From the NCBI RefSeq assembly GCF_000002425.4, contig NC_037256.1, forward strand, positions 13,135,573-13,199,572: a stretch of DNA of 64,000 nt. The letters are read 5' to 3'. Made by a program: the position numbers and the translations under genes. The notes beneath the pieces were generated by a model. It was given only the letters and a program-made list of their open reading frames with translations, was not told the origin of the DNA and made no database searches. The DNA is from Physcomitrium patens. Its lineage: Eukaryota; Streptophyta; Bryopsida; Funariales; Funariaceae. Positions 57,783 through 58,231 of the stretch are shown here, one piece after another. The first letter of the stretch is position 1, and each line of letters starts with the position of its first letter.

Positions 57783-57946
57783 TGTCACGGATACAAAAAA
57801 ACAAACTCGAGATCTAACAAGAAGTTCAAGAAGAACTGGCAAGAACTAGATTAATCAGATGAATACAAGAACAACACCAGAGAGGTGAGCTAGAGCTCTA
57901 AGAGATGTGTTGTCGAGACTAAAGAACTCTTCAGTCTCGATTCCAA

Positions 57947-57952
57947 TATATA
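57947..57952 (-). promoter_or_regulatory. TATA box of element C LTR
   Basis: GAGTATATATTGG on the minus strand, 12 bases downstream of the nearest heat-shock element. Transcription would be expected to start about 25-35 bases further on, near 57915-57925, leaving an R-U5 part of about 135 bp. Confidence 0.65.
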
Positions 57953-57963
57953 CTCTTATTTAG

Positions 57964-58208
57964 GAAGCTTCTCAAGTAACTTCTACCAACTAGGAAGCTT
58001 CTAGAAGGTTCCAGAGACTTGCTTCTAGAAGGTTCTAGAAACTTATCTCTAGAAGGTTCTAGAAACTTATCTCTAGAAGGTTCTAGAAACTTATCTCTAG
58101 AAGGTTCTAAAGACTATATCCCTAACATCTTCTACCAACAAAAAAACTTCTAGAAGGTTCCAGAGACTTGCTTCTAGAAGGTTCTAGAAACTTATCTCTA
58201 GAAGGTTC
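57964..58208 (-). promoter_or_regulatory. array of perfect heat-shock elements in the LTR of element C
   Basis: Alternating GAA and TTC triplets separated by two bases (nGAAnnTTCnnGAAn) occur in nine clusters holding about 27 units. The clusters start at 57964, 57994, 58023, 58052, 58076, 58100, 58148, 58172 and 58201. Several clusters have three or four contiguous units, the canonical high-affinity HSF site. A 24-bp period (CTAGAAGGTTCTAGAAAC core) links four of the clusters. The array lies immediately upstream of a TATA box in the element's sense orientation. Confidence 0.88.
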
Positions 58209-58231
58209 TAAGGACTATGTCCCTAACATCA

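Follow-up and report, generated by a model that had tools for sequence, protein, structure and literature searches.

A widely shared array of heat-shock-type elements in the LTRs of a Physcomitrium patens gypsy chromovirus, a probable heat-responsive promoter enhancer

What does a dense array of heat-shock-type elements do in the long terminal repeat (LTR) of a moss retrotransposon, and is it the accident of one copy or the property of a family? The question is raised by a 64-kb stretch of Physcomitrium patens DNA, which we call the window; it contains an LTR, belonging to an insertion here named element C, in which GAA and TTC triplets alternate just in front of a TATA box. The reading that we regard as quite probable, from comparison of the sequences, is that the array is a heat-responsive promoter enhancer, driven by heat-shock factors (HSFs), of a moss chromovirus that probably belongs to the Tcn1 clade.

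A strict count at 5-bp steps finds 27 perfect alternating GAA/TTC units in nine clusters, packed into 245 bp of U3 at 57964..58208 on the minus strand, with successive runs of 2, 4, 4, 3, 3, 2, 3, 4 and 2 units (three runs each of four, three and two); the number, clustering and span upstream of the TATA box given in an earlier note on this DNA are thereby reproduced. Twenty-one of the units lie in runs of at least three; when the LTR was shuffled 2000 times with its dinucleotides preserved, this number averaged 0.05 and never exceeded 4, and none of the other pairs of reverse-complement trimers rose above zero in the test. The sequence CTnGAAnnTTCnAG, which we take to be the classical heat-shock consensus, is matched perfectly six times in the array and not once in the rest of the 64 kb. 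Beyond the element C LTR the window has a single run of three (at 27067) and no run of four, while 20 simulated 64-kb windows gave 0.05 runs of four and 1.35 runs of three per window.

The repeat units to which the earlier note ascribed the growth of U3, a 24-bp repeat and a larger block, are both present. At 58036..58107 (minus strand) the 24-bp unit stands three times without a difference, its 12-bp core is found in eight copies within 58000-58208, and Tandem Repeats Finder (TRF, period 101), blastn and block comparison all recover a 101-bp duplication, whose outer copy, block A, lies at 58130..58230 (minus strand). The LTR head falls within block A, and the block duplication has brought a second LTR head into the middle of U3, at 58129. 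Placed as they are in a 24-bp minisatellite and in larger duplicated blocks, the sites change easily in number. We also considered CpG depletion of the kind described for the element ONSEN; the U3 has no CG at all, but the same is true of 193 of 1275 window stretches of equal size, and the feature is unremarkable. Exact matches to two LTR patterns, one tried in viral contigs and the other in prokaryote genome contigs, were not found.

The TATA box, TATATATT (57945..57952, minus strand), starts at 57952, 11 bp after the last heat-shock-element (HSE) unit, and the sense strand of the LTR is the minus strand, so that the array does stand directly before the TATA box in sense orientation, as had been claimed. 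This arrangement recurs in the 40 genomic copies scored with the full LTR as query (described below): the TATA region has 0-2 mismatches over 12 bp in all 40, and the distance from the last HSE unit is 11 bp in 36 copies and 41-46 bp in the other four. The LTR is the 3' LTR of element C, runs from TGTTAGGGA to GTGACA and measures 446 bp (57783..58228, minus strand). A span of 57783..58231 had been proposed for it, of which the end at 57783 stands, being the point at which element B's integrase frame ceases to follow its homologues, and the start does not: the 5-bp target duplications of complete relatives rule out a beginning at TGATG (58231) and place it at TGTTAGGGA, at 58228. Three nucleotides (TGA, 58229-58231) accordingly sit between the LTR and the adjoining polypurine tract at 58232..58242 (minus strand). 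A purine tract occupies the equivalent place in 25 of the same 40 copies, namely the ones scored as 3' LTRs.

The coding remains of element C agree with the gypsy chromovirus that had been named as the carrier of this LTR. On the minus strand we find pieces of reverse transcriptase (61016..61291, Pfam RVT_1), RNase H (60422..60733, PF17919/PF17917) and the H2C2 zinc-binding part of integrase (59885..60133, PF17921, E 2.3e-18), and then a chromodomain (58773..58916, Chromo PF00385, E 2.9e-12) in a frame different from that of reverse transcriptase and integrase. This order of domains is that of a gypsy element and not of Ty1/copia, and the chromodomain stands at the C-terminal end of integrase, as in chromoviruses. 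Three aromatic residues occupy what are presumably the cage positions of the chromodomain, in a stretch that holds stops. Pfam gave no match for four of eight frames examined in element C. Relatives of the RNase H piece are up to 83% identical to it, with no informative name among the 120 of 372 matches listed, and its comparison with viral contigs returned six pattern stretches, none of them confirmed. The reverse transcriptase-integrase frame (61291-59174) keeps its phase through 13 in-frame stops, which means that the window copy of element C is dead. Many of these stops look like C-to-T or G-to-A changes (uncounted), as in methylation-linked decay.

Element C interrupts element B, a gypsy pol frame with RNase H and integrase H2C2 parts at 56690..57782 (plus strand). 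The motif that precedes the break is present in 37 of 115 homologues, and 23 of the 25 listed continue with integrase sequence, the exceptions being P0154, which ends there, and P0193, which departs shortly after. The 5' LTR of element C is absent from the window, and on our reading of the sequence its 5' half appears to be interrupted at 61232 by another insertion. The remaining LTR may still have promoter activity, directed into element B. Within element C, positions 61232-63585 hold two inverted copies of a sequence of roughly 1.1-1.2 kb, about 74-90% alike in pieces; they look like the LTRs of a further nested gypsy element, the 3' coding end of which may lie at 63648-63920, in a frame without a Pfam match.

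Other parts of the window have features of their own. Among named relatives, the best match of a DUF642 gene at 37978-38979 comes from the moss Ceratodon purpureus (62% identical, with 84% of the query covered), and a minus-strand frame at 42133-42597 has a start, MGNAS, that is reminiscent of plant SnRK1 beta subunits. An exact 520-bp tandem duplication (100% identity) at 1541-2582 is either recent or an assembly artefact, and the stretches 16678-20064 and 46026-47815 have AT-rich repeats in common that are about 70-74% alike.

Whether the array belongs to one copy or to the family was addressed across the 470-Mb assembly (101 contigs). With the full LTR as query there were 2725 first-look candidates, of which 40 were scored, the window copy included; since the query itself contains the array this sample is biased, and all 40 copies have the array within 330 bp upstream of the TATA box, with 7-26 units (mean 16.9) in runs of at least three, 13-32 units in runs of at least two, and one to six runs of four or more in each copy. 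An array-free query, the R-U5 part at 57783-57952, gave 1360 candidates, 40 of which were scored. One was the window copy, and the other 39 are best matches (95-98% identity) rather than a random draw from the 1360; within 330 bp upstream of the TATA box, 38 of these 39 have a run of at least three and 37 a run of at least four, with a mean of 12.2 units in runs of at least three (range 0-22). One copy, L060, is without a run of three, and another, L086, has only one. A third set was drawn from 12 stretches of 9-10 kb around 5' LTRs, one of them around a pair already among the 40, in which partner 3' LTRs were located with the array-free R-U5 part. Ten were new (the L049 stretch yielded none), all with a run of at least three and nine with a run of at least four.

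When all sets are pooled, 88 of 89 distinct LTR copies have a run of at least three units and 86 a run of at least four. The family thus has 3P/4P sites of HSF type in its LTR promoter, as ONSEN-type elements do, and these counts of HSE units across genomic copies show that the array first noticed in a single LTR is present in nearly all family members examined; a one-off microsatellite expansion, one of the outcomes that the earlier note had named as fatal to its proposal, is ruled out. LTR DNA (29 kb) contains 147 runs of four or more, against no run of four and eight runs of three in 211 kb of non-LTR DNA, where the mask was drawn by whole-LTR similarity with the array included, such that an array alone would count as LTR, and 14 loci that duplicate others were excluded. 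A three-unit HSE-like motif, GAACTTTCGAGAA or its complement, occurs outside the LTRs in the stretches around the complete copies L041, L042, L043, L046, L048 and L050.

Where would transcription from such a promoter begin? The conserved stretch that follows the 5' LTRs of the family begins GTTTGTCGAGACT, and 11 nt of it are complementary to 11 nt at TATA+32, which in the window LTR lie at 57910..57920 (minus strand) and would form the 5' end of the RNA. Of the 15 LTRs that are candidates for the 5' position, 13 pair with their own primer site with one mismatch at most, seven of them perfectly. In L012 a change on one side of the pairing is compensated on the other, and L023 and L027 do not fit it; the LTR start was not found in L033 and L035 and is doubtful in L023. 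Since the primer site is complementary to this position, transcription probably starts there, the 11 nt pointing to a start at about TATA+32. Judged from this complementarity to its own RNA, the family appears to have the self-priming that in the Tcn1 clade takes the place of a tRNA primer site, and self-priming together with the chromodomain suggests that element C and its relatives are members of that clade. In the sections available of PMC6317226 and PMC3350952, self-priming is predicted for most Tcn1-clade chromoviruses; for the Selaginella Tcn1 element, the part of PMC2864245 that we consulted reports neither kind of primer site.

The array is far from constant in length. Target duplications of 5 bp are exact in seven of ten LTR pairs, match at 4/5 positions in two and at 3/5 in one, the L051 pair being left out of this measurement as its 5' end is not set. 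Divergence within the ten pairs is 2.6-13.7%, with 225 of the 294 differences being transitions, and the copies measured are therefore not recent. In nine of the ten pairs the two LTRs of an element are unequal in length, and in four of these the difference is exactly 48 or 120 bp, which indicates that the array is lengthened or shortened upon insertion or later. As the 5' members were picked for good long-array matches, the shortness of the 3' partners may in part be an effect of this sampling. Such unequal pairs are seen (L041-L052) although reverse transcription should make both LTRs identical at insertion. Across copies, the units in runs of at least two range from 6 to 32.

Among the 24-bp units of the window copy, five of the 12 positions are different between the two internal spacer types, and none of the 12 varies between cores (p = 0.037, two-sided Fisher test); a contrast of 11/12 against 0/12 between unit halves was dropped, since the halves after the last core of a block are flank and not spacer. 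In 279 units from 40 copies, departures amount to 1.8% in GAA/TTC, 1.7% in the intervening bases and 11.7% in the spacer half, block-end flanks included. The promoter-proximal HSE columns vary slightly less than the others, and not significantly so (variability 0.040 against 0.067, p = 0.13, 40 copies), and a repeat of the test on HSE columns gave 0.037 against 0.060 (p = 0.11) in 72 of 79 copies, seven that were too different for a gap-free comparison having been dropped. The 12-bp core is conserved as a block, and the HSF contact positions are not singled out. The suggestion that site number had grown as if selected is for these reasons not sustained: unit number and array length vary widely, and the HSE columns are not significantly more conserved.

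The same variation in unit number, the length differences of exactly 48 or 120 bp and the HSE columns without significant extra conservation all speak for a neutral U3 minisatellite, in which HSE-like triplets arose by chance in the 24-bp unit and were multiplied by slippage, with no HSF-dependent function. A minisatellite core would bring its HSEs along, and this is a counterpoint to the heat-enhancer reading. We nevertheless consider the neutral explanation unlikely. A run of at least three arises in only 0.045% of 200,000 shuffled 24-bp units placed in tandem, the four-unit run next to the TATA box has a spacer unlike that of the inner units, a run of four is kept in nearly all copies chosen without the array, and the differences between units of the window copy fall in spacers and not in cores.

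Tandem U3 repeats are common enhancers, and the array might in principle serve another factor, or work as a generic tandem enhancer, either constitutive or responsive to stress of the ABA/dehydration type. Physcomitrium RLG2, which responds to ABA besides heat according to the consulted portion of PMC7466625, lends this some support, but the six perfect consensus matches and an exact fit to the 3P/4P definition of HSF sites, as given in the text available of PMC5059998, make it improbable. Still further down in likelihood, and in our view very improbable, is that what counts is a hairpin formed by the array with itself, either in single-stranded cDNA or at the RNA 3' end (for instance as a small-RNA source), and that the HSE pattern is a by-product of the palindromes. 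The U3 does fold at z = -7.8, better than all of 200 shuffles; alternating GAA/TTC arrays are, however, self-complementary by construction, and a hairpin needs neither strict 5-bp GAA/TTC steps nor a position next to the TATA box.

On the preferred reading, that of a heat-responsive, HSF-driven enhancer, heat stress would lead the host HSFs to trimerise and to bind the U3 runs of three to four alternating GAA/TTC units; the bound factors would bring RNA polymerase II to the TATA box alongside, element RNA would start about 32 nt downstream of that box, and reverse transcription would be self-primed by pairing of the first 11 nt of this RNA with the primer site that directly follows the 5' LTR. 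Thirteen candidates for the HSF DNA-binding domain were scored in the genome, and eight of them pass the Pfam cut-off. From an anatomy that is strong and an analogy with ONSEN that is close we infer the function, namely HSF binding, heat induction and a benefit to the element.

ONSEN (ATCOPIA78) is the nearest known system, having HSF-type sites that include a 4P run in its LTR promoter (PMC5059998, PMC3907296, both consulted in part). According to the excerpts of the former, heat induction of Brassicaceae COPIA elements reaches about 1000-fold with 4P and about 100-fold with 3P, and the 4P of ONSEN arose by duplication of a proto-site; the excerpts of PMC3907296 describe binding of the ONSEN LTR by HSFA2. 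The sources as consulted present ONSEN as a Ty1/copia element of a flowering plant with one 4P and one gap HRE in its Arabidopsis copies, whereas the moss family is a gypsy chromovirus with a minisatellite array of up to 32 units.

Heat response in gypsy elements is not new in itself, as the published cases show within the parts of the literature available to us. In Physcomitrium, RLG2 (gypsy) is strongly induced by heat and ABA, and RLG1, the most abundant gypsy family, is heat-repressed (PMC7466625, in part), so that moss gypsy elements are not heat-activated as a rule. RLG2 resembles our family as a heat-induced moss gypsy LTR element, a likeness by description only, and the words HSE, motif and chromovirus do not occur in the accessible text of that paper. 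Fungal parallels are MAGGY of Magnaporthe, a gypsy element listed with Tf1/Sushi-related chromoviruses in a table of PMC6317226 and cited for stress-induced promoter activation in PMC3978060, where the text consulted has neither HSE nor heat shock element, and TCN3 and TCN12 of Cryptococcus. The latter two have putative HSEs in the LTR and, in the studies concerned, move only or almost only at 37 C; the portion consulted of PMC12810828 gives two putative HSEs for TCN3, a Ty3/gypsy element, and one for TCN12, and no large array is seen there.

The Tcn1-clade elements of mosses and club-mosses share with element C the chromodomain after integrase and a non-seed-plant host (PMC6317226, PMC3350952); no heat-shock array was seen in them, and the word heat is absent from the available text of PMC2864245 and PMC3350952. 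A Caenorhabditis Helitron family has tandem-looking HSEs as well and differs in being a DNA transposon of nematodes (PMC6927752, in part). Bamboo PHRE1/2 are heat-responsive, temperature-responsive elements being named for PHRE2 and HSE not occurring in the part of PMC8656106 consulted. Further heat-responsive gypsy elements are mentioned for conifers and other plants in the sections available of a review (PMC9780303), and HSF motifs in Arabidopsis gypsy elements near proteotoxic-stress genes in those of PMC8725346. In the literature searched, which was mostly without subscription journals and partly in excerpt, we found neither a heat-shock array in any moss LTR nor an array of this size in an LTR of any kind. 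What appears to be new, in that we have not seen it in print in these sources, is that a Tcn1-type chromovirus, a moss host and an array reaching 32 units, variable in length and retained by almost every copy studied, occur together.

Among LTR elements, the copia elements of Brassicaceae are established cases of HSF capture, and a heat-driven gypsy chromovirus in a moss, with a larger and length-variable array, would show an independent origin of this capture far away from them. The array suggests a possible cause for the published heat induction of RLG2, and the copies amount to many natural promoters with different site numbers within one genome. A more speculative extension, which we hold to be doubtful, is that the number of sites, set copy by copy through slippage of the 24-bp unit, makes heat sensitivity a rapidly varying trait of the family, with thousands of HSF sites in the genome if most of the 1360 candidates are real. 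If that is true, thousands of strong HSF sites could confer heat induction on neighbouring genes, or titrate the HSFs.
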